DNA of 64,000 nt. Source: Candidatus Brocadia sp. (lineage in GTDB: Bacteria > Planctomycetota > Brocadiia > Brocadiales > Brocadiaceae). The translations under genes were made by a program, and so were the position numbers. Positions 6,195 to 37,510 of this stretch are shown piece by piece. Numbering within the stretch: position 1 is the first letter of the stretch; each line of letters starts with the position of its first letter. The stretch covers positions 1 to 64,000 of the forward strand of contig SOEU01000001.1 in NCBI GenBank assembly GCA_021646415.1, in the 5' to 3' direction. The notes beneath the pieces are model-generated. The model saw nothing but the letters and a program-made list of their open reading frames with translations. It ran no database searches and was not told the origin of the DNA.

Positions 6195-7721
6195 TTAAGT
6201 CGTTTCGATTCTTGGGAATAATGGTTTACCCTTCCGTGAGACGGTACCTTCCTTAAATCCCTGATGGAACTCCAGACAAGGGGGATGGTTGTCTTCCAGA
6301 ATGCCAAGTTGTCGTTGGATTTCAGCAGCAATTTTTGGCATAAAGGGATAAATAAGAACAGAAATGTCTTTGATAGCCCTGGCTAATGTGCCGATGACTG
6401 TAGCAAGCTGTGGCCGTGTGGCATCTGTTTTTGCAAACATCCAGGGTTTCTTGTCTTCTATGAATTTATTGGTACGGCCTATAAATTCCCAAATAATCTC
6501 AAGCGCCCTGCTAAACTGGAGTTTATCCATTTCCTGATCCATTCTATCAAGGGCATCTTGTGATGCGATTCTCAGTTCATCATCTGTGTCAGTGACCAAC
6601 GGGATGATCCCATGAAAGTATTTTTCGATCATGGTTAATGTCCGTTGTAATAAATTGCCGAGGTCGTTGCCGAGATCCGAATTTATTCTGTGAATAAGGG
6701 CGGTATAAGAAAAATTTCCATCCAGACCAAAAGGGACTTCTCTAAGTAAAAAGTATCTATAAGCGTCTGTGCCATACGATTGAATGATACTAAGCGGGTC
6801 TATTGCATTTCCCAGGGATTTCGATATCTTTTGTCCTTCAATTGTCCACCAGCCGTGTGCAAAGATTTTAAAGGGTAAATCTATTTTCAAGGACATAAGT
6901 ATTGCAGGCCAGATAACACCATGAAACCACAGGATTTCTTTCCCGATAATGTGAACGCCTGCAGGCCAGTATTTTTGGAATGTTTGCATATCATCATCGT
7001 AACCTAATGCGGTAATATAGTTCAGAAGCGCATCAATCCAGACATAAATAGTGTGGGTTTGATCCGAGGGGACTTGAATACCCCATTCTACAGCGGAGCG
7101 ACTGATGCTGACGTCTTCTACCGGAGATTTAATTCTCTGCAGTAATTCATTTCTTCTCGATTCGGGTTGGATAAAACGGGGATGCTTTTCGTAATATTCG
7201 AGGAGAAGGTTCTGGTATTTTGATAATCTGAAGAAATAATTTTTTTCCTTTACTTTTTCGACGGCTCGATTACATTCAGGGCATCTCCTTTCCCTGAGTT
7301 GTGATTCAATCCAGAAACTTTCACAAGGGATACAATACCATCCTTCGTATTCTCCCAGATAGATATCCCCGTTCTCCGAGATTTGTTGAAAGATTTTTTT
7401 AACACGGCGGCAATGCCTCTCATCGGTTGTCCGTATGAAATCATCATTGGAGATGTCGAGTTTGTTCCACAAGATCTTGAATTTATCTACCACTGCATTA
7501 ACAAATTCTTCCGGTGTTTTATTACAGGATTGTGCCGCCTTTTGGATCTTTTGCCCATGTTCGTCCGTTCCCGTCAGGAAGAACACATCGAAGTTTTTCG
7601 CTCTTTTATATCGAGCCAGCACGTCGGCAGCGATGGTGGTATAAGAATGACCGATGTGTGGTATATCATTGACATAGTAAATGGGTGTTGTAAGATAAAA
7701 AGTGCGTTTACTCAAGACCAC
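6195..7721 (-). CDS. metG: Methionyl-tRNA synthetase
   Basis: This class I aminoacyl-tRNA synthetase charges tRNA-Met. It has the HIGH signature (PHIGHSYT, about residues 21-28), a zinc-knuckle insert (CIPC and CPEC about 15 residues apart, residues 130-150), the KMSKS-equivalent KISKSLGN (about 298-305) and an anticodon-binding helical domain. At 508 residues it lacks the C-terminal EMAP-II/Trbp111 tRNA-binding domain found in longer MetG proteins. The start is a GTG overlapping the 3' end of ricT by 14 bp, which implies translational coupling. Confidence 0.95.
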   Translation of the reverse strand: MVLSKRTFYLTTPIYYVNDIPHIGHSYTTIAADVLARYKRAKNFDVFFLTGTDEHGQKIQKAAQSCNKTPEEFVNAVVDKFKILWNKLDISNDDFIRTTDERHCRRVKKIFQQISENGDIYLGEYEGWYCIPCESFWIESQLRERRCPECNRAVEKVKEKNYFFRLSKYQNLLLEYYEKHPRFIQPESRRNELLQRIKSPVEDVSISRSAVEWGIQVPSDQTHTIYVWIDALLNYITALGYDDDMQTFQKYWPAGVHIIGKEILWFHGVIWPAILMSLKIDLPFKIFAHGWWTIEGQKISKSLGNAIDPLSIIQSYGTDAYRYFLLREVPFGLDGNFSYTALIHRINSDLGNDLGNLLQRTLTMIEKYFHGIIPLVTDTDDELRIASQDALDRMDQEMDKLQFSRALEIIWEFIGRTNKFIEDKKPWMFAKTDATRPQLATVIGTLARAIKDISVLIYPFMPKIAAEIQRQLGILEDNHPPCLEFHQGFKEGTVSRKGKPLFPRIETT

Positions 7722-8577
7722 AATCCTTTTCGCAGGGATGATCGCACATCGTTTCTTTTTGTCGCAGGGGTTCCCTTACTTTGTCTATAATGTCATGGAC
7801 AGATGCGTGGATCCTGCTTCCGTTATTCAGCTCAATGGTAACCTGCTGTTGTAATACATCGTAATTAACGACTTCCCCAATTCCTTTTGCAGTTTTGACG
7901 ATAGAACCTTTTCTTGGAAGAGCGTATTTTAAATCTTCATAGACCTTATCTTCGTAACGTAAACAACACATGAGACGGCCGCATCTTCCTGAAATCTTGG
8001 AGGGATCCAGGGTCGCCTTCTGATTTTTTGCCATTTTCATGGTGACGGGTTCAAGATTTTTGAGAAAGGACCTGCAGCACAACTCTCGCCCGCAGTGTTC
8101 ATAATCGGCCAGAAGTCTCGCCTCATCCCGAACACCGATTTGTTTCATCTCTATGCGGGCCTGGTATTCTTTTGCCAGATCTTTTACCAGTTCCCGGAAA
8201 TCTACACGGCCATTGGCGAGGTAATAAAAGATGATTTTTTTTGTCCCAAACAGGTGTTCAACGCTGGCCAGTTTCATAAGGAGTCTGTGTTCTTTTATCT
8301 TTTTCTGACAAAATTTGAACTCGTCAGGAATCGATTCGTTATGTATTTTCTTTTGTTTTTCTTTATCATCGGGGGTGGCTTTTCGCAAAATTTCTCCAAG
8401 ACTTTCAATCGAGTCATCATCTGCTATTTCTTTTACCTTTGTAACGACCTCGCCAAACTCTACACCCCGATGAGAACGAATGATAACCGGATCATCTTTT
8501 TTCAGCGAGTTAAACATTGCGTAGAAGTCTGATGTATTCTTGAGAACGCCGTATCGAATTGTAAAAATGTGTTTCAT
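7708..8577 (-). CDS. ricT: RicT/YaaT-like PSP1 domain protein
   Basis: The PSP1 C-terminal domain is plain: ARLLADYEHCGRELCCRSFL followed by GRCGRLMCCLRYE. This cysteine pattern binds Fe-S clusters in the Bacillus Ric (Y-) complex, where RicT works with RicA and RicF to direct RNase Y-dependent mRNA processing. The domain is often found near DNA-polymerase clamp-loader genes; here it precedes metG. I took the ATG at 8575-8577 (MKHIFTIRYG) because the family starts near there; a TTG 27 bp upstream is possible. The role in this organism is inferred from the family. Confidence 0.85.
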   Translation of the reverse strand: MKHIFTIRYGVLKNTSDFYAMFNSLKKDDPVIIRSHRGVEFGEVVTKVKEIADDDSIESLGEILRKATPDDKEKQKKIHNESIPDEFKFCQKKIKEHRLLMKLASVEHLFGTKKIIFYYLANGRVDFRELVKDLAKEYQARIEMKQIGVRDEARLLADYEHCGRELCCRSFLKNLEPVTMKMAKNQKATLDPSKISGRCGRLMCCLRYEDKVYEDLKYALPRKGSIVKTAKGIGEVVNYDVLQQQVTIELNNGSRIHASVHDIIDKVREPLRQKETMCDHPCEKDCGLE

Positions 8578-23980: not shown

Positions 23981-24184
23981 TCAGGAACTTATTTGTAGTA
24001 CAACATTCTCCAATTCATCCGAATTAACAAATGGAACTTGTGCAATAGTTATATTGTCTTCTCCTTCCAGTTTAGCTGCAAGATGCCCCTTGCCTAATAG
24101 CCGCTCGGCACCTTTCTCTCCAAGTGCAATTTCAGAAGTTCCCTCGCTATCTACTTTGAGAATTAATCTGTTGCCTAGAATATT
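23981..24184 (-). pseudogene. FtsK/SpoIIIE-like ATPase, C-terminal remnant
   Basis: On the minus strand an open frame of about 67 codons, without its own start, reads LGNRLILKVDSEGTSEIALG, then EKGAERLLGKGHLAAKLEGE, and ends VPFVNSDELENVVLQISS before a TGA. The pattern RLxLxVDSxxxSxxxLGxxGAExLLGKG is that of the region after the RecA core in FtsK/SpoIIIE-type DNA pumps (compare GAExLLGxGDML in FtsK). A TAA precedes the fragment and no Walker motif is nearby, so only the tail survives. It lies against the SNF2 helicase and probably belonged to an earlier defence or mobile-element gene. Confidence 0.5.
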
Positions 24185-24325
24185 TTACCTTATATACCTG
24201 TCCATTTTTTGTGATACATTAGGCAACCGGGGAAAAGTACGTTGACAATATAAATACTTTTTCATAAAAGTCTTAGGCTTTAATTATTTTCTAAGATCAT
24301 TAGACACATTTATGTATACTGCAAA

Positions 24326-27300
24326 TTGATGCAAATAACACCTTATCACGCCAAATATTTTGCATATGAACTCACAAAACGCAGTTCGTCGGATAGCTTG
24401 CAAAAGCTGGCATCTTCTCTTTTAGATGCCCAGGTAGATTTAAATCCACATCAAGTAGAGGCAGCTTTGTTCGTCTTCCATTCCCCGCTTTCTAAGGGTG
24501 CTATACTGGCAGATGAAGTAGGGTTGGGAAAAACCATCGAGGCGGGTCTGGTTATCTCACAAAAATGGGCTGAAAGAAAAAGAAAAATATTGGTCATAGT
24601 ACCTTCAAGCTTACGTAAACAATGGAATCAGGAATTACTGGATAAATTTTTCCTTTCGTCACTCATATTGGAAACATCTTCTTTTAATCAGGAAATTAAA
24701 AAAGGGAATTTGAATCCCTTTGAACAGCATGAAATAATCATTTGCTCATACCATTTTGCCAGGGCAAAAGATGCCTATATCAGAAACATCAACTGGGACT
24801 TGGTGGTTATTGATGAAGCCCACCGTCTGAGAAACGTTTACAAACCGCAAAACAAGATTGCTAATGCCGTCAAAAATGCCGTAGCTCACGCTCCAAAAAT
24901 CCTCCTTACGGCAACACCGCTCCAAAATTCCCTCTTAGAACTTTACGGTCTGGTGAGTGTCATTGATGATTATACCTTTGGTGATTTAAAGAGTTTTAAG
25001 AGCCAGTTTTCCAGATTGGCCGATGAGAACGATTTTTACAGCCTGAAAGAACGATTGAAGCCTGTTTGTATAAGAACGCTACGCCGCCAGGTACTGGAAT
25101 ACGTTAAATACACGAATAGAATAGCAATAACACAGGAGTTTATTCCCTCTTTTGACGAACAAAAATTATATGATTTGGTTTCATTATATCTGCAAAGAGA
25201 AGACCTTTTTGCACTTCTTCCGGGTCAACGACAATTAATGACTCTGATTCTCAGAAAATTACTGGCATCATCTACCTTTGCAATATCGGGGACACTGGAA
25301 GCCCTGGCAAATAAGCTTGAAAATGTTGTGAAAAGGCAAAGACAATTAGACGAAGAGGTAGAAAAATCAATAGCACAGAATTTTGAAACCTTTGATGAAT
25401 TAAAGGATGAGTGGCTGGAAGACGAAGAAGCACCACAACCACTTTCCACTGAGCAGGAGAAGCAATATTCTCCTGAGGAAATCAAGAATATAAAAAAAGA
25501 GGTTCATGATCTCAGGGAATTTGAGCGGCTTGCAAAGTCTATTACCCGAAATTCAAAAGGTGAAGTCCTGCTGACGGCGCTCCAAAAAGGCTTTGCGGAA
25601 ACTGAGCGTCTGGGTGGTAACAAGAAGGCTATCATCTTCACAGAGTCAACAAGAACGCAGGAATACCTGAAAAACATTCTCGAAAATACAGAATTTAAGG
25701 GGAAGATCGTCCTATTCAACGGTTCTAGCAGCGATCCAAAATCACGTGAAATCTATTGGCAATGGCTGGAAAAGTATAAAGATACAGATACAATAACAGA
25801 CTCAAAGACAGCGAATTTGCGTGCTGCAATAGTTGATTACTTTAAAGATGAAGCGGTAGTTATGATAGCAACCGAAGCAGCCGCCGAAGGTATCAACCTG
25901 CAATTTTGCTCTTTGGTGGTAAATTACGACCTGCCATGGAATCCACAGCGTATCGAACAGAGAATTGGGAGATGCCACCGCTATGGACAAAAGTTTGACG
26001 TGGTTGTGGTGAATTTTTTAAACAAAAAACAATGCAGCAGACCAAAGGGTTTACCAGCTATTGGATGAGAAATTCAGGCTCTTTAGTGGTGTCTTTGGCG
26101 CAAGCGATGAAGTGTTGGGAAGCATCGAGTCGGGGGTTGATTTTGAAAAGCGCATTGCACAGATTTACCAAAATTGCAGGGCTCCGGAAGAGATACAGTC
26201 CTCATTTGACCGGCTACAAAAGGAATTAGAGGAACACATTGAAGATCGCCTGAAAACTGCCAGACAAAAGCTCCTGGAAAATTTTGATGAGGAAGTGCAT
26301 GAGAAATTAAAGGTAAGCCTGCGTGAAAGCAAAGAATACCTGACACGATACGAAAACTGGCTATGGCAGATTACCAAATACTATCTTGAACCTTATGCTG
26401 ATTTTGTAGCAGATGAGTATTCTTTCACCCTGCGGGAAAATCCATTCACAGAAGAAAAGATACATCCAGGCCCTTATAGACTTGGAAGGAGCATCGACGA
26501 TGTCAATATTTACAGGATCGGCCATCCTTTAGCACAGCGTATTATTGAACAATGCAAATCTTTTACGTGTGAAACAGCTCCAGATAGCCAAAACGGGCTT
26601 ATTTTCAATTATTCAGATACACCCGCAAAAATTTCCATACTTGAGCCACTTGTTGGGAAATCCGGTTTTTTATCAGTAATCAACTTAACTATTCATTCGT
26701 TTGAAACCGAAGATCATATCTTATTATGTGGAATTACTGGTGAAGGTACAGAATTGGATATTGAGCAATGCAAAAGGCTATTTTCCCTACCTGCTACAAT
26801 AAACTCTTTTCTGGAAAAGGAACCCACCCCTAACCCCTCCCCCCAGAAGGGGAATAAGATGGGAATATCTCAAGAAGGGGATGAACACACCCCTTGCCCC
26901 TCTCAAGAGGGGAATAAACACACCCCCAACACCCTCTCGAGAGGGGAGCATAAAAGTCCCCTCTTGGGAGGGGATTTAGGGGTGGGTAATACGGAAGGGG
27001 ATTCAAGGGTGGGTTCCCATGTCAAAAATCTTATAAATCAAATAACCCAGAGGCAGCAAGCAGAAATCCTGCAGATGAATGCTGAACGTAATACAGGTTT
27101 CTTCGATACCGAGATGGAAAAATTAGACAGGTGGGCAGAAGATGTAAAAAGCAGTATGGAAATTGAATTGAAAGAATTAGATAAAGAGATAAAATACCGT
27201 AAAACAGAAGCGAAAAAAATCCTGAATCTTGAAGAAAAGGTGCAGGCACACCGGCAGATCAAAGAAATGGAAAAGAAACGGAATACCATGCGTTTGAATT

Positions 27301-27422
27301 TGTATCAGACACAGGATGACATAGATAAAAGGAAGGAAGGATTGATAGATGAGATAGCGGCACGCTTAAAACAAAAGGTTGAAAAATCAGAGTTATTTAC
27401 AATTAGATGGAAACTTATTTAA
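24326..27422 (+). pseudogene. SNF2-family helicase, +1 frameshifted
   Basis: Two abutting frames make one protein of about 1,030 residues. The first (24326-26068) has ADEVGLGKTIEAG (Walker A, about residues 62-74), VVIDEAHRL, LLTATPLQNS and QRIEQRIGRCHRYGQ, all standard SNF2 motifs. The second (to 27422) continues without loss of sense: AADQRVYQLLDEKFRLFSGV in the other frame directly follows VVVVNFLNKK. The break is at AACAAAAAACAAT near 26026-26038, where one surplus base would explain it; true mutation or an assembly error are both possible. The C-terminal half contains a GC-rich in-frame repeat (about 26820-27019) before a long coiled coil. Such helicases often accompany DNA modification/restriction genes. 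Confidence 0.8.
26820..27019 (+). repeat. In-frame GC-rich repeat, copy in SNF2 gene
   Basis: About 200 bp of alternating C-rich and G-rich blocks (CCCACCCCTAACCCC, CCCCTCTCAAGAGGGG, CCCCTCTTGGGAGGGG, GGGGTGGG) encode PTPNPSPQKGN, HTPNTLSRGEHKSPLLGG and DLGVGNTEGDSRVG. It lies between the folded domain and the coiled coil and keeps the reading frame. It is a compound of several units of the repeat found in mod, res and the DUF559 gene. Confidence 0.85.
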
Positions 27423-27423
27423 A

Positions 27424-27522
27424 ATGCCAATAATGCAAAACAATAAATGGTTAGAACTCACATGGATAGGCAAGGAGAATCAGATTGCCGTCAAAGTCGT
27501 TGATCACAGAGGAATGAGGTAA
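27424..27522 (+). pseudogene. 5' remnant of a mod-like methyltransferase gene
   Basis: Thirty-two codons starting at ATG encode LELTWIGKENQIAVKVVD and then a stop. The segment GAACTCACATGGATAGGCAAGGA is identical to the start region of the intact mod gene at 30851. This is evidently the beginning of a second or earlier copy of mod placed directly behind the helicase. The reverse transcriptase and AlbA_2 genes separate it from the intact gene. Confidence 0.7.
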
Positions 27523-27578
27523 TGGTGGTAAGGGAGATAGTGTAAATCAGTCACTCAAAGTTATATATTTTTAATACT

Positions 27579-29201
27579 ATGGGTTGGATAGACGAATTAG
27601 AGATAAATGAAGCTTTAGATGAAATTATTAAAAATCAGCGAACGGGGAATGATTTTATCTTAGACCCCTTTAGATTCGAGGATTTTAAGAATGCAGAAAT
27701 CAGGAAGCTTTTCATTGAAGAAATAAAGGCTGAATTGGGAACATATACTGCCAAGAAACTTCTCTTTATCGATTATCCAAAATCCAATTTTATTTTACGT
27801 CCATGTGCTCGACCAGTCTTAAAAGACCTCGTAATTTATCAAGCGATTGTCAAATTTATTGGCTCGAAAATATATCGTAAAATTCCAAATGACATAAGTT
27901 ACAGTTTTAACAAATTTAAAGATAAATTTAAAAAGGACAAAAAAAGAGAGATTGACCATTGGCTTGCATTTGAAGAAAGAACTTTACAATTTAGCAAGCA
28001 ATATGACTATTTGTTAACTTCGGACATTGCTTCATTTTTTGAACATATCTGTCATGACGTATTAAAGGAACGTCTCATATTGCTTAACACTTCTGATAAT
28101 TATTCAAGTGCTGTAAATTTTCTTGTGAATAAGTTGCTCAGTAAATGGTCACAAACTGAGAATATCAAGAATTTCTCATTGCCTCAGGGACCCGATGCCT
28201 CAAGAATACTTGCAGATATATATCTTTATCCTGTTGATAAGAAAATGAAAAGTAATAGAAAGATCAATTATTACCGATATATGGATGACATTCGACTTTT
28301 TGCCAACACCAAGCATGACCTAAAGCTTGCTTTGATAGATTTAGTCAAAGAATTGAGAGAATTAAAATTGAACCTAAATGCCAAAAAAACAAAAATATAT
28401 GAAACAAGAGACAGGGAATTATTAAAAAGTGTAATTGATTCTCAGAAAAACACCCTCAATTTGATTGATAAGGCATTCAAATCAAAACAAGAAGGCGAAA
28501 TAAAGCTTGTATATGATAGTTTATTTGCACTCTATGAGATGGCCAACGAGAATAATGTCGCTTTTAGCGAAAGATATATGAACTTTTTCGTCTCTCATGC
28601 TGTTGACTTAATGAAATTTGAAATGATTAATAAATCTGACATAAGAAAGTTATACAATGAATTTATGTCTATGTTAGAAAATAAACCGCATATAACAAAT
28701 AAGATTTGCTGGTTTTTTCAAGCTGCTGCTCAGTATGACAAGACTCTTAGAGAATTTATTTTAAAAAAATTAATTGAATTCTTGAAAGACAAAAAGAAGA
28801 ATTTGTATGAATGGCAGGAGTTGATGGTGTTGGATACTGTTAGGCAATTACTCAAAAAAGGTGACTTAAATTTTATTAAGCAAATACGCAAATTAAAGCC
28901 AAAGCATTTTCTTGCTGAATGCCAGAAAAGATTGATATTAGGTAGAGAAGGAGAAAGTGACGACATAGAACAGATTATCAATGTTATGAAGACTTTATCC
29001 TTAAATGATGAACAAAAAAGAAATGCTGCTGTTGCAATACAGGGATTACACAAAAGCCATAAGGATAAGATATACGACGAATATATTGATAAGACGTACA
29101 CAAAGAAATTTCTTAAGTCTTTAAATGGCAAATATTTTGGCTACGTTTATAAATTGCAAAAAGATTGGACTGAAGAGGCCGTGGATACTTATCCATTATA
29201 A
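27579..29201 (+). CDS. Reverse transcriptase, defence-associated type
   Basis: RNA-templated DNA polymerase motifs are clear: TSDIASFFEHI (motif A, Asp149), LPQGPDASRILADIYL (motif B, from residue 201) and YRYMDDIRLF (motif C, 233-241). Upstream, ILRPCARPVLKDLVIYQAIV resembles the RT-0/1 region of the unknown-group and Abi-type RTs. About 250 further residues after the palm are alpha-helical and repeat-like, with no maturase, integrase or endonuclease motif, so it is not a typical group II intron or retron RT. The retron NAxxH and VTG motifs are not seen. It is much more AT-rich than its neighbours, suggesting separate acquisition. The exact RT class cannot be set here. Confidence 0.82.
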   Translation: MGWIDELEINEALDEIIKNQRTGNDFILDPFRFEDFKNAEIRKLFIEEIKAELGTYTAKKLLFIDYPKSNFILRPCARPVLKDLVIYQAIVKFIGSKIYRKIPNDISYSFNKFKDKFKKDKKREIDHWLAFEERTLQFSKQYDYLLTSDIASFFEHICHDVLKERLILLNTSDNYSSAVNFLVNKLLSKWSQTENIKNFSLPQGPDASRILADIYLYPVDKKMKSNRKINYYRYMDDIRLFANTKHDLKLALIDLVKELRELKLNLNAKKTKIYETRDRELLKSVIDSQKNTLNLIDKAFKSKQEGEIKLVYDSLFALYEMANENNVAFSERYMNFFVSHAVDLMKFEMINKSDIRKLYNEFMSMLENKPHITNKICWFFQAAAQYDKTLREFILKKLIEFLKDKKKNLYEWQELMVLDTVRQLLKKGDLNFIKQIRKLKPKHFLAECQKRLILGREGESDDIEQIINVMKTLSLNDEQKRNAAVAIQGLHKSHKDKIYDEYIDKTYTKKFLKSLNGKYFGYVYKLQKDWTEEAVDTYPL

Positions 29202-29237
29202 ATTGAAAATAGATGTTTTTGTAGTCAACATACGGCA

Positions 29238-29254
29238 CCGAAAAGCTTTTTCGG
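29238..29254 (+). terminator. Possible stem-loop terminator after RT
   Basis: CCGAAAA and TTTTCGG form a 7-bp stem with a GCT loop, 37 bp past the RT stop. The T-rich stretch comes only about 25 bases later, so as an intrinsic terminator it is weak. Confidence 0.3.
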
Positions 29255-29379
29255 ATATAAGTCAAGGGAATGTAACTTTTTTAAATGCCATTTTTTACTT
29301 CATTAGAAAACGGAAAACTTTCAAAACATCTTAAATATCAATATGTTACTACTTCATTACTTGATTAGACGATGAACCA

Positions 29380-30837
29380 ATGAAGAAATGGATAGCATCT
29401 ACGAGGGAAACACTGGAAGCCTGTCTTGGGCCGGTGTCCCACGAGATTAACGAACTTGACTGGAAACAAAGTCTTTCACCCAAGAAAGAGCGTCTGGTAC
29501 AACACCTTTCGGCTTTTGCCAACTATCCAGGCGGCGGGGTTCTTGTATTTGGCATTGACGCCCAAAACGCTATGCCAAAGAGTATTCAGCAAGACGAAGC
29601 TACGATTATAGTTGGACAGATTGCCAATCTTGGACGAGATGCTTTAGAACAGCCTGTTGCGATAGATCACGCCATTGTCGAGTTTCACAACGCATCCCTG
29701 CTGTTTGTACGTATAAAGGAGAGCAAGACAAAGCCTGCACATCTGCGGGGTAAGCCACTGGATCATTGCTATATCCGGTCTGGGGGGACTACGCGCCTTG
29801 CTTCACGACTGGAAGTCGGTTCGATGCTCCTCAATAGCCAAAATCCATTCTGGGAAGAACTACGAGCTACAACATTACTTCGTTCCGATGAGGTGATAAC
29901 CAGACTGGATTCAGAAGGTATTCATCGACTGCTCCAGCGACCAGTTGTGCAAACAAATGAAGAATTACTGCGCTGGCTGGTGGATGAAAAATTCATTGAG
30001 CAGGATGGTGATGGATACCACATCACTAACTTTGGTGCAATTGCAGCCGCACATCAGCTTAAAGAATTCGAGGGTTTAGAACGAAAACGTATCCGCATTA
30101 TACGCTATAAGGGATTCAACAAGGTTGAGACAATAGATGAGGTTGTCGGACACAAGGGTTACGCAATTGGTTTTGAAGAGCTAATAGCCTACCTTAGGCG
30201 TATTCTTCCCCACAGCGAAGTCATTGAAAAGGCTTTGCGCAGAGAAGTTATCGTATATCCGGAAATTGCCCTGCGTGAACTCATCGCCAATGCCCTCATT
30301 CATCAGGATTTCAACATTTCAGGTACCGGCCCCATGATTGAAATTTTCGATAATAGGATTGAATTCATTAATCCTGGTGCTCTCCCTCCGTCAAAGAAGT
30401 TAGACCGCCTGATTGGCACCACTCCTGAGTCACGAAATGAAAAACTCGCCTCAGCATTCAGGCGATACAGGATTTGCGAGGAACGAGGAACCGGCTTCAT
30501 GAAGGTAGTAACCGCCGTCGAGTTATATGGACTTCCTCCGGTCGCGTTCGAAGAGGGAGAAAATTATTTCAAGGTTACATTATTTGCGCCACGAAAGTTT
30601 TCAGAGATGTCTCAGATGGAACGGATCGAGGCATGTTATCAACATGCGGTGCTTAAATATCTCAGCAGTAGCGCCATGACCAATACTTCGTTACGTGAGC
30701 GGCTCAAGATGCACGAAAAACAACGCACTCAGGTTTCTAACCTGATACGGGATGCAATAGACGCAGGACGTATTAAGCGCAAAGATCCGACATCGACATC
30801 TGTTAAGTTCGCTGAATACATTCCGTATTGGGTATAA
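29380..30837 (+). CDS. AlbA_2 (Schlafen-like) ATP-binding protein
   Basis: The N-terminal AlbA_2/Schlafen nucleic-acid-binding domain shows ELDWKQSL, LVQHLSAFANYPGGGVLVFG and HCYIRSGGTTRLAS (residues 20-150). The central GHKL-type HATPase_c_4 module shows ALRELIANALIHQDF, MIEIFDNRIEFINPG and EERGTGFMKVV (residues 300-375), and the protein ends in a winged-helix-like region. This arrangement is common in proteins formerly annotated as RecG-like transcriptional regulators and is often found in defence islands; the biochemical role is mostly unknown. It is GC-richer than the reverse transcriptase next to it. It ends 13 bp before mod and is probably co-expressed with it. Confidence 0.82.
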   Translation: MKKWIASTRETLEACLGPVSHEINELDWKQSLSPKKERLVQHLSAFANYPGGGVLVFGIDAQNAMPKSIQQDEATIIVGQIANLGRDALEQPVAIDHAIVEFHNASLLFVRIKESKTKPAHLRGKPLDHCYIRSGGTTRLASRLEVGSMLLNSQNPFWEELRATTLLRSDEVITRLDSEGIHRLLQRPVVQTNEELLRWLVDEKFIEQDGDGYHITNFGAIAAAHQLKEFEGLERKRIRIIRYKGFNKVETIDEVVGHKGYAIGFEELIAYLRRILPHSEVIEKALRREVIVYPEIALRELIANALIHQDFNISGTGPMIEIFDNRIEFINPGALPPSKKLDRLIGTTPESRNEKLASAFRRYRICEERGTGFMKVVTAVELYGLPPVAFEEGENYFKVTLFAPRKFSEMSQMERIEACYQHAVLKYLSSSAMTNTSLRERLKMHEKQRTQVSNLIRDAIDAGRIKRKDPTSTSVKFAEYIPYWV

Positions 30838-30850
30838 GACCGGAGCAAAT

Positions 30851-32662
30851 ATGGTCAATAACCGTCAAAAACTTGAACTCACATGGATAGGCAAGGATAA
30901 CCAGCCGAAGCTGGAACCGCGCATATTGATTGAAGACCCTGAAAAGTCTTATGGACACACCCCCAACCCCCTCTCGAGAGGGGAGTATAAAAGTCCCCTC
31001 TTGGGAGGGTCACCCACCCCTCAGTCCCCTCCAGGGAGGGGAGAAGGGGTGGGTAACATGCTTATCTATGGCGACAATCTCCTTGCCCTGAAGGCGCTTG
31101 AACAGGACTTTGCCGGAAAAATAAAATGTATCTATATTGATCCGCCATATAATACAGGCAATGCCTTTGAGCATTATGATGATGGACTTGAGCATTCTAT
31201 CTGGCTGAGTCTGATGAAGCCGAGGATGGAGATATTGCACAGACTGTTGCGTGACGACGGATCACTCTGGATTTCTATTGATGACGATGAATGCCATTAT
31301 TTGAAGGTACTCTGTGACGAGATTTTTGGAAGAAAGAATTTTGTAAATAATGTTATCTGGGAAAAGAAGTTTTCTCCGCAAAATGACGCAAAATGGCTTT
31401 CTGATAGTCACGACCATATCTTGGTCTATGCCAGAAACAAAGATTTGTGGAGACCGAATCTGTTGCCAAGAACAGCAGAAATGGATTCCCGATATAAGAA
31501 TCCTGATAGTGATCCAAGAGGACTGTGGACATCGTCAGATTTATCTGTTAAGACGTACACTCCAAATACTGATTATCCAATAACCCTTCCTTCTGGAAGA
31601 GTAGTAAATCCAACTGAGTCGCGATGTTGGGCTGTATCAAAAGAAAAATTTCGAGAATTGGTTGAAGACAATCGAATTTGGTTTGGAGAATCAGGAAATA
31701 ATATGCCAAGGTTAAAAAGATTTCTATCCGAAGTTCAAGAAGGCACAGTATCCAAAACCATTTGGTTTAGAACCGAGGTTGGTGATAATCAGGAGGCGAA
31801 GAAAGAAATCAAGGCATTTCATAGCGAGGATGTTTTTACTACTCCCAAGCCAGAACGTTTAATCCAACGCATTCTCACTTTAGCCACCAATGAAGGAGAC
31901 CTTGTTCTTGACTCCTTCCTTGGTTCCGGTACTACCGCTGCAGTTGCTCACAAAATGAACCGAAGGTGGATTGGCATTGAGCTTGGCGAGCATTGTCATA
32001 CGCACTGCCTGCCACGGTTGAGAAAGGTTGTTGACGGCACGGATCAGGGCGGCATATCCAAAGCTGTGAATTGGCAGGGCGGCGGTGGTTTTAAGTATTA
32101 CTACTTAGCCCCAAGTCTGCTGAAAAAGGATAAACATGATAACTGGATTATCGATGAACGTTATAATGCCGATATGCTTGCCGCAGCTATGGCAAAACAC
32201 GAAGGTTTTAGATACTGCCCGGATGAGCATATTTACTGGAAACAGGGACGTTCCACTGAAAAGGATTATATTTTTATCACTACGCAGTTTGTCACGGTAC
32301 AGTTTTTGGATAAGATTCACGAAGAAATGAAACCGGACGAGAGTCTTCTGATTTGTTGTAAATCTTTCCAGGAAGCTTGCGAAAATCGTTACGCTACTAT
32401 TACCATTAAAAAAATTCCCAGGATGTTGCTCGGCAGGTGTGAATTTGGGAAAGAAGATTATAGCTTGAATATAGTCAATTTGCCCGAACCCACCCCTGAC
32501 CCCTCCCAGGAGGGGACTTTCGGTATTCCCCTCCTGGGAGGGGATTCAGGGGTGGGTAATCACGGCGGGGATGCAGAGGTGGGTATGTCAGGCAAAAGAA
32601 AAAAGTCAATAAAAAATACTAACTCCAAAAGCCCATATAAACAAAGAAAATTATTCCAGTGA
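30851..32662 (+). CDS. Type III-like adenine DNA methyltransferase (Mod)
   Basis: A beta-class N6-adenine methyltransferase: motif IV is DPPYNTGNAF (about residues 97-106), the AdoMet motif I is DSFLGSGTTAAVAH near residue 355, and RRWIGIELG follows. Between them lies a target-recognition region. Two copies of the GC-rich repeat are translated in frame, one at about residues 36-69 between LIEDPEKSYG and the start of the catalytic domain, the other near the C-terminus. Neither touches a catalytic motif. With the Res protein downstream it should form a type III-like restriction-modification pair; the recognition site is unknown. Its last four bases overlap the DUF559 start (GTGA). Confidence 0.88.
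   Translation: MVNNRQKLELTWIGKDNQPKLEPRILIEDPEKSYGHTPNPLSRGEYKSPLLGGSPTPQSPPGRGEGVGNMLIYGDNLLALKALEQDFAGKIKCIYIDPPYNTGNAFEHYDDGLEHSIWLSLMKPRMEILHRLLRDDGSLWISIDDDECHYLKVLCDEIFGRKNFVNNVIWEKKFSPQNDAKWLSDSHDHILVYARNKDLWRPNLLPRTAEMDSRYKNPDSDPRGLWTSSDLSVKTYTPNTDYPITLPSGRVVNPTESRCWAVSKEKFRELVEDNRIWFGESGNNMPRLKRFLSEVQEGTVSKTIWFRTEVGDNQEAKKEIKAFHSEDVFTTPKPERLIQRILTLATNEGDLVLDSFLGSGTTAAVAHKMNRRWIGIELGEHCHTHCLPRLRKVVDGTDQGGISKAVNWQGGGGFKYYYLAPSLLKKDKHDNWIIDERYNADMLAAAMAKHEGFRYCPDEHIYWKQGRSTEKDYIFITTQFVTVQFLDKIHEEMKPDESLLICCKSFQEACENRYATITIKKIPRMLLGRCEFGKEDYSLNIVNLPEPTPDPSQEGTFGIPLLGGDSGVGNHGGDAEVGMSGKRKKSIKNTNSKSPYKQRKLFQ
30956..31055 (+). repeat. In-frame GC-rich repeat, N-terminal mod copy
   Basis: This 100-bp copy begins CACACCCCCAACCCCCTC, contains the perfect palindrome CCCCTCTCGAGAGGGG and ends AAGGGGTGGGTAA. 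It is read as HTPNPLSRGEYKSPLLGG and a further glycine/proline-rich stretch. Confidence 0.85.
32489..32585 (+). repeat. In-frame GC-rich repeat, C-terminal mod copy
   Basis: Outer arms CCCACCCCTGA (32489-32499) and TCAGGGGTGGG (32546-32556) are perfectly complementary, and inside them CCCCTCCCAGGAGGGG and CCCCTCCTGGGAGGGG are near-palindromes. Read in frame as PTPDPSQEGTFGIPLLGG and DSGVGNHGGDAEVG. This copy shows most plainly that the unit can fold as one long hairpin. Confidence 0.85.
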
Positions 32663-33116
32663 AACGAAAAGTTATTTTACCATATAATCCAAAGTTAAAA
32701 GAAGTTGCACGGCGTTTGAGAAAAGCGGCACTTTATCCGAGGTACTTTTGTGGAGATATTTAAAAGGGAAGCAAGTACTGGGATATGACTTTGATCGTCA
32801 AAAACCAATTGATAATTATATTGTAGATTTTTTCTGTAATGAATTGATGTTAGCAATCGAGATTGACGGTATCAGTCATGAAAACAAGAGTGAAGAAGAT
32901 AAAATAAGGCAATCAAAATTGGAATCTCTCGGAGTAAGGTTTCTGAGGTTTTATGATTCAGACGTTAAGAAGAATATGCAAGGTGTTTTGTGGGCTATCG
33001 AAAATTGGATTCGAAAACATAAAGACGGACCCACCCCTGGCCCCTCCCAGGAGGGGAATATGAAGAGAGATGGCTTACCAGGAGGGAGTATGAAGAGAGA
33101 TAAAGTAATTCCGTAA
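32659..33116 (+). pseudogene. DUF559 (PD-D/ExK-type) endonuclease, frameshifted
   Basis: The gene starts at GTG 32659, overlapping the mod stop, with KRKVILPYNPKLKEVARRLR. One missing A in the A-tract near 32720 shifts the frame. After correction the sequence runs SGTLSEVLLWRYLKGKQVLG, then IVDFFCNELMLAIEIDG and LGVRFLRFYDSDV, which is a standard DUF559 very-short-patch-repair-like nuclease core with Asp, Glu and Asp in the usual places. The downstream frame (from 32748) is intact to TAA 33116 and ends in a copy of the GC-rich repeat. Either the gene is dead or the base was lost in assembly. Confidence 0.75.
33030..33101 (+). repeat. In-frame GC-rich repeat in DUF559 gene, with 12-bp direct repeat
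   Basis: CCCACCCCTGGCCCCTCC followed by an AGGAGGGGAA block is the left half of the element. It is followed by ATGAAGAGAGAT twice (33060-33071 and 33090-33101, exactly 30 bp apart), read as GNMKRDGLPGGSMKRD. It appears to be a truncated unit at the 3' end of the gene. Confidence 0.7.
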
Positions 33117-33211
33117 CGGTGATTGCTCTGACATTATTCTTGTCAAGCAATTTCTCATAACCCTATTTTTCACATAGTTCTTAAAACAAAAATAAATAAG
33201 GAATTATACGT

Positions 33212-33544
33212 ATGAAGCTTTCTATAAAAGAACGAGAGATCGTTGAAAGATTTAGACAAGTAATAAACGACAAATTTCCTGGTGAAATTATTGATGTAAT
33301 GGTATTTGGCTCTAAAGCCAAGGGAGATGCTACAAAAGAATCGGATATCGATGTTTTGGTCATTACTTCATCAAATAATTGGGAAAAAGGTGATGAAATC
33401 AGAGAGATTGGTTATGGACTGGATAGTGAAATAGATTATAAGCTATCAATTCAGGTTATTTCTAAGGGACATTTTGATTATCTCAGACAAAACAATTTTC
33501 AGTTTGTTAAAAATATAGAAAATGAAAGTATTACGGTATCTTAA
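33212..33544 (+). CDS. MNT-type nucleotidyltransferase
   Basis: The 110-residue protein has the minimal nucleotidyltransferase signature VFGSKAKGDATKESDIDVLV (GSxxxGxxxxxSDID) at about residues 31-50 and a third acidic residue in SEIDYKLSIQV. Such proteins usually act with a HEPN partner as toxin-antitoxin or AMPylating pairs. No HEPN gene is adjacent, so it is a solo copy between the DUF559 and res genes. AAGGAATTATACGT precedes the ATG. Substrate unknown. Confidence 0.82.
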   Translation: MKLSIKEREIVERFRQVINDKFPGEIIDVMVFGSKAKGDATKESDIDVLVITSSNNWEKGDEIREIGYGLDSEIDYKLSIQVISKGHFDYLRQNNFQFVKNIENESITVS

Positions 33545-33593
33545 GCAAAAGGGTATTGATATTTAAAAGTTATAATCTTTGAAAAATGAGAAA

Positions 33594-36365
33594 ATGAACC
33601 GCATTGCCATTGCAATTAAAAATCGCTTGAGCCTTCGCCCACCGCAAGCAGATAGTCTGAATATACTGGCAGAGCTTACAGACAAGTTAACGTTAAAGAA
33701 ACACACCCCCAACCCCCTCTCGAGAGGGGAGCTTAAAAGTCCCCTCTTGGGAGGGGATTTAGGGGTGGGTAATACGGGAGGGGATTCAGGGGTGGGTTTT
33801 TTCCTTCAACAAGAACTTGAAAAGGTAAAAACCAGTTACCCTACCTGCACCGATTTTGAAAGAAACTTTCCTTCTCTCTGTTTTGCTTTGGCTACGGGTG
33901 TTGGAAAGACACGGTTAATGGGGGCATTTGTGGCTTATCTGTATCTGTCAAAAGGTATAAAAAACTTTTTTATTTTGGCTCCTAATATTACCATTTATAA
34001 CAAACTCATTGAAGATTTCTCCAATCCCACCAGCCCAAAATATGTATTTCAGGGGATTGGTGAGTTTGTTCACAGACAACCACGGATTGTTACCGGGGAT
34101 AATTACAATGCCATTGCCCAAACTTCCTTTTTTGAGTCAGACGCACATATTAACGTATTTAATATTTCCAAGATAAATGCCGAAACAAAGGGCGGAAAAC
34201 TTCCGCGCATTAAAAGGCTTTCGGAGTATTTAGGCGTTTCTTATTTTAATTACCTTTCAAACCTCGATGATCTTGTCCTGTTGATGGATGAGTCACATCA
34301 TTATAGAGCAGATAGGGGAATGCAGGTTATTAATGAACTAAACCCAATTTTGGGTTTAGAACTTACAGCGACTCCACAAGTAGAACGAAGTGGAGGGGCT
34401 ATTAAGTTTAAAAATGTCGTGTTTGAATATTCATTAGCTAAGGCTATTCAGGACGGTTTTGTGAAGGAACCGGCAGTGGCTACCCGCAAAGACTTTGACC
34501 CTTCCAAATATTCTAGTGATGAACTGGACAGGATAAAACTGGAAGACGGCATTCGTATCCACGAAGACACGAAAGTGGCTTTGGATATATATGCGCGGGA
34601 TAATAGAGTAAAACCGGTAAAGCCTTTTGTGCTGGTTGTCGCCCAGGATACAACCCATGCCGGCAAATTAAAGCATTTGATCATTTCAAAGGCATTCTTT
34701 GAAGGTAATTATGCCGATAAGGTAATGGAAATCCACTCCAGCCAGACGGGTACGGAAAAAGAAGAAAATGTTGCACAGTTGATTTCTTTGGAAAGGCCAG
34801 AAAATAATATAGAAATTGTCATCCATGTTAATATGCTGAAAGAAGGTTGGGACGTAACTAATCTTTATACAATTATCCCCTTAAGAACGGCTACGTCTAT
34901 GACCTTAAGAGAACAGACTATTGGCAGGGGCTTACGCTTGCCGTATGGGAAAAGAACGGGAAATGACAAGGTGGACAAATTAACTATTGTTGCCCACGAT
35001 AAATTTCAGGAAATAATTGACGCAGCCAATCAACCCGATTCCATTATTAAAAGACAAAATATAATCGAAATTGACCCACAGGAAATTTCCGGGCAAAAAG
35101 AGGTAATTACCTCTGCTTCAAACATTGAACAGCAATTTGAGGAAGAACAAAAAAGGATTGAACGTATTGCCGAACCTGAACAAAGGCAAAAGGCACAGAT
35201 TAATTTTGAACTCAGAAAGACGATCCTTTCGACACTTCCGGAACTCAACAATGCGGTGGCGAACGTCAATGAATTGACAAAGTCTGAAATCAAGCAAATA
35301 GCAGTAGAAAAAATAAAACAAATGATTTGCAGTACCCTTCAGAAAAGTTTATTTGCCGCAGAAATGATAAAGGAAGTTGAAGAAGCGTATGAAGCGGTGG
35401 TACTTGATTTTGTACAGAACATTATCGAAATTCCAAGGATTACTATTCAGCAAAGTAATGAAGTACGGTCGGGCTTTAAGGATTTTGACCTTGATACGAA
35501 AAATCTGAATTACCAACCGGTATCGGAAGAAATTTTGGTAAAAAAGCTTCGTGAACAGGAAAACAGTGTTGATATTATAAGCGGGAAGGGCAGAGGTATA
35601 CATGACAGTCCGGAAAATATCATTGTTAACGAACTCATGAATTATCCGGAAATAGACTATGACGGACAGTCTGATTTGTTATTCAAAGTAGCTGATCAGG
35701 CAATTGAAAAATTCAGGACGTACCTTGATGATGATAAATTGATGAATGTCGTTCTCTATAATAAGAGAGAAATTGCGGGATATATTCATTCGCAATTAAT
35801 GCAACATTTTTACCTTGAAGCACCAAGCTATGAAAAACCCATGGTAAGGCCTTTTACAAAAATCGAAGAACATAATCTTTCAAAATACACGAAAGACAGT
35901 ATTCATCATTTTACAGAGACAATCACACCGACCAATGCCATTCCCAATAAGGTATTTAGTGGTTTCAGGAAGGCATGCCACAATTTGTATAAATTTGATT
36001 CCAAGACAGAAAAAGATTTTGCGGTCATTTTAGAGCAGGACAAGGCAGTTCTTAAGTGGCTAAGACCCGCATCGAGTCAATTCCACATATACTGGAAGCA
36101 CAATTCAAGGCAATACAATTCTGATTTTGTAGTGGAAATGAAAGATGCTATTTATATGGTGGAAACCAAAAAAGAAGGTGATATTGGAACCACAGATGTT
36201 CAGGAAAAAGCCCAGGCAGCCGTAGAATATTGCAAGTATGCTACTGATTTTACCATTCAAAATAGAGGGAAACCCTGGAAATATATTTTAATACCGCATA
36301 ATGCAGTTATGGTAAATATGGGCTTTGAGAACTTGGTAAGGAGTTATGAATATCAAAGTGAATAA
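33594..36365 (+). CDS. Type III-like restriction helicase-nuclease (Res)
   Basis: A DEAD/DEAH-type translocase with ATGVGKTRLMGAFV (Walker A, about residue 100), LLMDESHHYRAD (Walker B), LGLELTATP and QTIGRGLRLPYG, followed by a C-terminal nuclease domain with NSDFVVEMKDAIYMVETKKE (PD-D/ExK pattern). Length of 923 residues is usual for Res. A GC-rich repeat is translated at about residues 37-68, before the ATPase domain. I chose the ATG at 33594; a TTG at 33579 would add five residues. With Mod it should cut unmodified DNA after ATP-driven communication between sites. Confidence 0.88.
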   Translation: MNRIAIAIKNRLSLRPPQADSLNILAELTDKLTLKKHTPNPLSRGELKSPLLGGDLGVGNTGGDSGVGFFLQQELEKVKTSYPTCTDFERNFPSLCFALATGVGKTRLMGAFVAYLYLSKGIKNFFILAPNITIYNKLIEDFSNPTSPKYVFQGIGEFVHRQPRIVTGDNYNAIAQTSFFESDAHINVFNISKINAETKGGKLPRIKRLSEYLGVSYFNYLSNLDDLVLLMDESHHYRADRGMQVINELNPILGLELTATPQVERSGGAIKFKNVVFEYSLAKAIQDGFVKEPAVATRKDFDPSKYSSDELDRIKLEDGIRIHEDTKVALDIYARDNRVKPVKPFVLVVAQDTTHAGKLKHLIISKAFFEGNYADKVMEIHSSQTGTEKEENVAQLISLERPENNIEIVIHVNMLKEGWDVTNLYTIIPLRTATSMTLREQTIGRGLRLPYGKRTGNDKVDKLTIVAHDKFQEIIDAANQPDSIIKRQNIIEIDPQEISGQKEVITSASNIEQQFEEEQKRIERIAEPEQRQKAQINFELRKTILSTLPELNNAVANVNELTKSEIKQIAVEKIKQMICSTLQKSLFAAEMIKEVEEAYEAVVLDFVQNIIEIPRITIQQSNEVRSGFKDFDLDTKNLNYQPVSEEILVKKLREQENSVDIISGKGRGIHDSPENIIVNELMNYPEIDYDGQSDLLFKVADQAIEKFRTYLDDDKLMNVVLYNKREIAGYIHSQLMQHFYLEAPSYEKPMVRPFTKIEEHNLSKYTKDSIHHFTETITPTNAIPNKVFSGFRKACHNLYKFDSKTEKDFAVILEQDKAVLKWLRPASSQFHIYWKHNSRQYNSDFVVEMKDAIYMVETKKEGDIGTTDVQEKAQAAVEYCKYATDFTIQNRGKPWKYILIPHNAVMVNMGFENLVRSYEYQSE
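33701..33800 (+). repeat. In-frame GC-rich repeat, res copy
   Basis: The unit reads CACACCCCCAACCCCCTC, the palindrome CCCCTCTCGAGAGGGG, then CCCCTCTTGGGAGGGG and two GGGGTGGGT blocks. It is translated HTPNPLSRGELKSPLLGG and DLGVGNTGGDSGVG, the same frame as in mod and the helicase, and lies between LTDKLTLK and LQQELEKV. Confidence 0.88.
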
Positions 36366-36370
36366 TTTCT

Positions 36371-37510
36371 TTACTTTAGGGATAATTTTTTGTATATTTC
36401 CAACGTTTTCCGGGCAGTATTCTCCCACGAAAAATCCTTAATCCGTTCTAAAGATTTCGTGATTAAGCTGTTTCTCAACTCCTCGTCCAGCAGCACCTTG
36501 TTTATTGCGTCCCGGAGAGCAGTAACATCGTGCGGATTGACAAGTACGGCTGCATCCCCCGCAACCTCTGATATTACGGGAATATCAGAGGCAATGATCG
36601 GTATTCCATGCCCCATCGCCTCCAGGACAGGCAAGCCGAATCCTTCAATAAGAGACGGAAAAACAAACACCTTCGCTTTTTTATAAAGATATTTTAAATC
36701 GCAGTCCTGAACGTATCCCAGGAAAAAAACCTTTTCCTCTAATTTACAATCATGAACAGCTGACTTTACATCTTCATAAGCATTTCCTTTATTGCCAGCA
36801 ATCACAATTGCATAATTCCTTTGTAAGGAATCGTCAAGGAGGGAAAACGCCCTTACAATAGATTCAACCTGCTTTGTTTTTTCGATAACACCTACATAGA
36901 GTATATAATTCCCGGGTATATGATACTTTTTGAAAATATATTCACCATCGTTATCATCATTATCTACGGATAAATTCCCTGAAAAACCTTCCAGGGTTAC
37001 ACCAATGGATTCAGGGGTATAGTCCAATAGATCAAGAATTGCCTTTCTCGTGGTATCCGATACGGTTATTATGAAATTGGCTTTCTTTACACTGAGGAGC
37101 ACGAAAAGTCGTTTTGCATAACTTTTGAGTCTCCCATATTTTTCCGACTGAATAAATTCCGCAAGGTCGTGGATTGTTACCACTATGGGACAGTGCCGTT
37201 TTAAAATCGGTATGGGGTTTGTATAATGAAGCACGTTGAGGTTATACGTTTTTACCACTTTGGGGAATATCAGTGCCTGCCAGAATGCCTTTAACAGGGT
37301 GCCTTTTGGCGGAGACATTTGTATAAACTGAAAGTTGGGTGCTGTGAGTGGCTTTACAAATCTTTGCCAGTGTGCATAGAAGATGAAGTACTGATTTGTA
37401 GTATCCATTTGGGAGAATTGATAGAGTATCTCTGTGATATACCTGTCTGTGCCTCTTAAGGTTTCGTTCGAGGTTATCATATTGATACCGATGTTTATTC
37501 TATTCTTCAA
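36371..37510 (-). CDS. Family 4 glycosyltransferase
   Basis: This is a GT-B enzyme with the N-terminal acceptor domain and the retaining GT4 donor-site motif EGFGLPVLEAMGHGIPIIASD (E-x7-E) near residue 300. Others include YILYVGVIEKTKQV and FFLGYVQDCDLKYLYKKAKV. The start is a TTG with AGGA about 6 bases upstream. The gene stops only 6 bp from the convergent res stop, marking the right border of the defence island. It is followed upstream by the GT9 gene with a 20-bp gap. The sugar is not predictable. Confidence 0.9.
   Translation of the reverse strand: MKNRINIGINMITSNETLRGTDRYITEILYQFSQMDTTNQYFIFYAHWQRFVKPLTAPNFQFIQMSPPKGTLLKAFWQALIFPKVVKTYNLNVLHYTNPIPILKRHCPIVVTIHDLAEFIQSEKYGRLKSYAKRLFVLLSVKKANFIITVSDTTRKAILDLLDYTPESIGVTLEGFSGNLSVDNDDNDGEYIFKKYHIPGNYILYVGVIEKTKQVESIVRAFSLLDDSLQRNYAIVIAGNKGNAYEDVKSAVHDCKLEEKVFFLGYVQDCDLKYLYKKAKVFVFPSLIEGFGLPVLEAMGHGIPIIASDIPVISEVAGDAAVLVNPHDVTALRDAINKVLLDEELRNSLITKSLERIKDFSWENTARKTLEIYKKLSLK

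Follow-up and report, generated by a model that had tools for sequence, protein, structure and literature searches.

The window analysed here is a stretch of 64,000 nt from Candidatus Brocadia sp. (contig SOEU01000001.1). Within a glycosyltransferase/exopolysaccharide region of the window lies a restriction-modification (RM) island, which contains both genes, mod and res, that mark a type III RM system (Table 1). A reverse transcriptase (RT) gene and the gene of a protein with SLFN_AlbA_2 and HATPase_c_4 domains (hereafter AlbA_2) are located between an SNF2 helicase and the Mod-DUF559-MNT-Res genes. This setting had been outlined in a preliminary description of the locus and was recovered by profile scans, with MNT read by eye. 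The same description had recognised an AlbA_2/Schlafen-like ATP-binding protein after the RT, and both of its domains score above their cut-offs (SLFN_AlbA_2, 55.8 bits; HATPase_c_4, 86.3 bits).

Table 1. Genes, motifs and fossil sequences of the RM island (positions in the window).
Feature	Position	Strand	Basis
DrmD-like SNF2 helicase, split into two ORFs	24326..27422	+	1-nt homopolymer indel relative to intact L232, L223
Fossil: first 20 codons of a Mod gene (MPIMQNNKWLELTWIGKENQ)	27424..27483	+	DNA identity to Mod start
Fossil: 3' end of a second DNA methyltransferase (large, site-specific; not Mod), one base missing	27484..27545	+	
UG/Abi-type RT, 540 aa	27579..29201	+	intact ORF; profile matches, tree, model
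RT motif A: catalytic D149 codon	28023..28025	+	invariant among 36 aligned RTs
RT YMDD codons, residues 234-237	28278..28289	+	Y234, D236, D237 invariant among 36 aligned RTs
RT alpha-helical repeat (alphaRep-like) domain, residues 288-514	28440..29120	+	AlphaFold2 model; full-length Foldseek matches
RT C-terminal tail, residues 515-540, candidate priming Y538 (codon 29190-29192)	29121..29198	+	
SLFN_AlbA_2 + HATPase_c_4 protein (AlbA_2), 485 aa	29380..30837	+	profile matches
Mod, type III DNA methyltransferase	30851..32662	+	MTase_III 670 bits
DUF559 nuclease-like protein	32748..33116	+	profile scan
Small nucleotidyltransferase-like protein (MNT)	33212..33544	+	translation, read by eye
Res, type III restriction helicase	33579..36365	+	REase_III 602 bits

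The RT had been described as a stand-alone enzyme with YMDD and LPQGP motifs, and we confirm this: RVT_1 reaches 66.8 bits in the Pfam scan (cut-off 29.6), and LPQGP (residues 201-205) is intact, as are D149 and YMDD. The base composition of the RT gene is foreign to the island, with a GC content of 31.2% versus 38-47% for the other island genes. No clear ribosome-binding site was seen directly 5' of the RT ATG, and a promoter/terminator scan gave nothing above chance.

The SNF2-Mod-Res core is shared with SNF2-helicase type III-like RM islands (BPTD_3080-type relatives), which are also found on plasmids (L234, L237). The SNF2 protein resembles DrmD_b of DISARM (558 bits) but remains below the cut-off of 950 bits, and no other DISARM components were found among the scanned genes. 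Compared with the intact relatives L232 and L223, the SNF2 gene carries one extra A in a run at about 26023-26030; this may be a sequencing or assembly error or a real frameshift, and the frameshifted SNF2 gene suggests that the island may partly be in decay. In addition, GC-rich palindromic repeats (103-nt and 32-nt units) occur at 26819-27015, 30950-31052, 32483-32585, 33026-33057 and 33696-33798. The repeats of this family are translated in frame as part of SNF2, Mod, DUF559 and Res, giving ..TPNPLSRGEYKSPLLGGDLGVG.., and similar peptides are inserted at varying places in the copies of relatives.

Class and phylogenetic position of the RT

The RT was assigned by means of the UG models of PADLOC 2.0.0 and later papers. 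Every leading PADLOC match is a UG/DRT RT model, the scores being 214 bits for UG21 (residues 4-505), 193 for UG9_small, 169 for UG9_large and 157 for UG32. The group II intron model gives 86 bits (cut-off 300) and the retron model 46 bits (cut-off 235). An Rfam scan of 26000-31000 detected no intron, retron (msr-msd) or other RNA family. Meanwhile, RVT_1 is the only Pfam match of the RT, in which no maturase domain was found; there is no TR/VR-like repeat pair in 24000-36500, and no avd-like protein among the scanned genes. An intron, retron or DGR origin was rejected on these grounds, in line with the preliminary description, which had seen none of the three sets of hallmarks in the sequence. 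The RT belongs to class 1 of the UG/Abi (DRT) enzymes, and its phylogenetic placement is with UG RTs, not with intron or retron clades. PADLOC, the tree and Foldseek all agree with the earlier proposal of a UG/DRT/Abi-class RT in a defence (RM) setting.

In a scan of the genomes of 84,980 species, the closest relatives of the RT are those of locus L113 (Phycisphaerae, 34% identity) and locus L114 (Nitrospirae, 35%), and all remaining relatives show about 23-32% identity. The three RTs form one clade (support 100/97), known from these members only, and the L114 RT is interrupted by an in-frame stop. The clade stands beside the UG9 clade (100/99) and outside it, a neighbour placement that is weakly supported; an AU test on its sister group gave p 0.47 for UG9 and p 0.08 for UG21, values that reject neither grouping. 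No member of the clade was found among the viral contigs searched. The best match on the plasmids searched is a true UG21 RT (25% identity over most of the length), and matches on the phages searched are confined to the RT domain.

The three RTs score 214-252 bits on UG21 and 184-193 on UG9, while recognised members reach 375-545 (UG21), 366-924 (UG9) and 602 bits (UG32) on their own models. With UG21, the best-scoring model, the window RT shares the layout of an RT followed by a helical repeat, but UG21 members such as L030 and L163 score 545 and 464 bits and the window clade is apart from them in the tree; we therefore rejected membership of UG21. UG9 RTs, the tree neighbours, mostly carry a tyrosine in their last residues and adjoin a PolA-type polymerase, which is PRK14975 in 94% of cases (PMC8934634). 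No such polymerase gene is present near the window RT, and membership of UG9 was likewise rejected. The low scores and the separate clade together place the lineage outside the named groups tested within UG/Abi: it is a small branch claimed by no PADLOC UG model and as yet without a group name. The same genome encodes a second UG RT of the UG7/DRT8 type (L006 1114-3419, C5; 496 bits), whose gene overlaps that of a nuclease-like protein; the C-terminus of the latter is of the zinc-ribbon type (read by eye).

Fold and proposed function

The long helical C-terminal extension noted previously is reproduced by an AlphaFold2 model based on 36 sequences (pLDDT 86.5, pTM 0.87). The RT domain extends to about residue 286 and is followed by consecutive helices, mostly of high confidence, and by a tail with low pLDDT at residues 527-540. 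The model predicts that the extension is an alpha-helical HEAT-like repeat (alphaRep) domain, and extensions of this type are the defining feature of class 1 UG/Abi enzymes. In class 1 UG systems, an RT joined to alphaRep carries out untemplated and sometimes protein-primed synthesis (PMC13174585). The best solved structures retrieved by Foldseek are DRT4 (E 2e-12), UG15, DRT6 (TM 0.60/0.65), Abi-P2 and AbiK. DRT4 (UG15), DRT6 (UG12), Abi-P2 and AbiK (ranks 1-7 and below) share the whole-chain fold of the window RT and align over 530-590 columns; group II structures align with the RT domain alone (about 275 columns). These whole-chain matches belong to different UG groups and show only 14-16% identity to the window RT.

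The window RT ends in ..VDTYPL, the L113 RT in ..EGNFY, and most UG9 RTs in ..YD or ..YE, and the frame of the L114 RT past its in-frame stop reads ..EPSPY. Judging from this recurrent tyrosine near the C-terminus, Y538 is a candidate priming residue of the window RT, a role proposed from its position only. The known primers are Y666 in the C-terminal tail of DRT3b (PMC13174585) and Y496/Y498 of DRT9 (PMC12483538); AbiK and Abi-P2 use tyrosines elsewhere in the protein, Y44 and Y61 (PMC9508834). What DRT3b and DRT9 share with the window RT, for which priming is putative, is a flexible tail with a tyrosine among its three final residues. They differ from the stand-alone window RT in that DRT9, a class 2 system, needs an ncRNA and DRT3b works with DRT3a.

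We consider it likely that the RT is a stand-alone, self-primed anti-phage polymerase of UG/Abi class 1, captured as cargo in an RM island. Polymerase activity is predicted. Upon phage infection the RT would oligomerise and begin, with no RNA as template, to synthesise DNA on its own tail tyrosine, Y538; the DNA covalently attached to the protein would then stop or kill the infected cell (abortive infection). The RT overlaps the preceding gene by 4 bp in L113, follows a space of about 50 bp in L114, and follows a methylase fossil in the window. Little sequence is thus left to encode an ncRNA ahead of the RT, in keeping with the untemplated synthesis of class 1 enzymes. Given this limited space in L113 and L114 and the outcome of the Rfam scan, we rejected an upstream ncRNA of the class 2 DRT type. 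The gene that overlaps the L113 RT (L113 7974-10007) encodes a 677-aa ATPase-TPR (STAND-like) protein, so that this RT may have another neighbour or partner.

Methylase sequences, cargo slot and neighbouring genes

Two methylase remnants, which the preliminary description does not mention, precede the RT gene. The first matches the start of the actual Mod gene (30875-30904) with 93% DNA identity over 30 nt and is 89-95% identical to the same post-SNF2 position in L224 and L226. The second reads ..IAVKVVDHRG(N)EVMVVRE..*, and over its final 35 bp it shares 94% identity with the sequence directly 5' of the L114 RT, although the two RT proteins are only 35% identical. The same methylase end is present in four family-level relatives (G016, G017, G019, G029), each time directly before a different cargo gene; it was absent from a reversed control and from the remaining genomes of the 392 searched in the phylum. 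It corresponds to the C-terminus of large methyltransferases in BPTD_3080-type RM operons (L251, L252), and a Thermus operon of this type has a DUF3800 gene in the position after the methyltransferase. A derivation of the leader from Mod alone was dropped, as Thermus and Mycobacterium homologues identify it as the C-terminus of a larger methyltransferase. The cargo behind the methylase end in relatives includes HEPN-like, TIR-TPR-like (both named by eye) and other genes. In L245, a TIR-TPR-like protein (6523-8511) directly follows the leader. In L242 (6488-6748) and L243, an 86-codon open frame precedes cargo of 458 aa and 347 aa, respectively; an apparent large-methylase start is joined in it to the last 20 codons of the methylase, and this frame, kept in two genera, may be a fossil or a small gene.

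The occurrence of one methylase end in front of the RT and of unrelated cargo can be read as cassette exchange at methylase ends, and the 35-bp scar suggests such exchange between phyla. However, L242 and L243 share one chromosomal site and L244 and L245 another; this shared ancestry of loci explains part of the sharing, and the number of cases is small.

Generally, the island core is kept in many relatives, with most genes 65-95% identical, while the content of the SNF2-Mod gap varies. The gap holds AlbA_2 alone in G010, of the same genus, and PDC-M36A (scanned) before Mod in G057; elsewhere it holds other AlbA_2 proteins with YhcG-type, DUF2130-like (names by eye) or unknown genes. On plasmids, it contains a phospholipase D-like gene (by eye) in Roseomonas and is empty in Ketogulonicigenium. 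The combination of RT and AlbA_2 was found in no other island copy. Based on these sequence comparisons, the gap is an exchangeable cargo slot, into which the RT was probably captured.

Could the RT instead be a partner of the methylase or RM machinery, for example as backup immunity when RM is inhibited? The window and L114 RTs both directly follow methylase sequence, the methylase end recurs before HEPN-like, TIR-TPR-like and other cargo, and a UG9 RT lies in the type I RM locus L115. The L113 RT, however, adjoins the ATPase-TPR gene instead, the slot accommodates diverse cargo, and the islands of relatives as a rule lack an RT, so that we regard a partnership with RM as improbable, if the best of the alternatives.

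The preliminary description had raised the possibility that RT and AlbA_2 form an undescribed composite defence system. In such a system, AlbA_2 might sense or process the DNA or RNA products of the RT. The two genes are on the same strand, 178 bp apart, in the same RM island. Nevertheless, the sister island of G010 has an AlbA_2 of 95% identity and lacks an RT in the stretch from SNF2 to this gene, and DNA homology between the window and G010 resumes at 29263, 62 bp past the RT stop. The GC contents of the RT and AlbA_2 genes are 31.2% and 46.7%, and neither L113 nor L114 has an AlbA_2. Recurrent RT-AlbA_2 adjacency in independent genomes was not found among 80 related RT loci and the AlbA_2 loci examined. 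A model of AlbA_2 proteins gave matches in one of the 80 (L115, where a UG9 RT and AlbA_2 proteins share a type I RM operon); the two genes thus do co-occur elsewhere, but so rarely that the expectation of a recurrent pair nearly fails. AlbA_2 relatives on plasmids are often, though not always, in type I, DUF1156 or other methylase operons, beside methylase or specificity genes. Outside the window, just one of the AlbA_2 loci that were inspected has an RT (UG36), 5 kb away: on the Aliarcobacter plasmid pAFAEC (L263 7860-16265), AlbA_2 is inside a type I RM operon and the UG36 RT lies downstream. The composite system is thus not borne out, and we consider a two-gene system very unlikely. RT and AlbA_2 are best described as separate passengers, probably neither needing the other, AlbA_2 being apparently an ATPase passenger of RM operons.

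Least probable of all is a degenerate or silent passenger without present function, a reading that the frameshifted SNF2, the methylase fossil 5' of the RT and the in-frame stop of the L114 RT would fit but that the intact 540-codon ORF, the full set of catalytic residues and the well-folded model oppose.

We thus retain the self-primed anti-phage polymerase as the preferred reading of the RT. A broader proposal, tentative at present, is that the RT is the founder of a new UG/Abi group whose DNA synthesis is primed by a C-terminal tyrosine, and that it is spread, as HEPN and TIR genes are, by cassettes recombining at the conserved methylase 3' end. If this were true, methylase operons would be interchangeable loading docks for abortive-infection genes. 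The island illustrates the shuffling of defence genes, with a fixed methylase/helicase core and a swappable slot, and it cautions that genes adjoining each other in such a slot need not be partners. Meanwhile, the RT adds a lineage to the UG/Abi polymerases, of which the groups studied so far make strikingly different DNA products.
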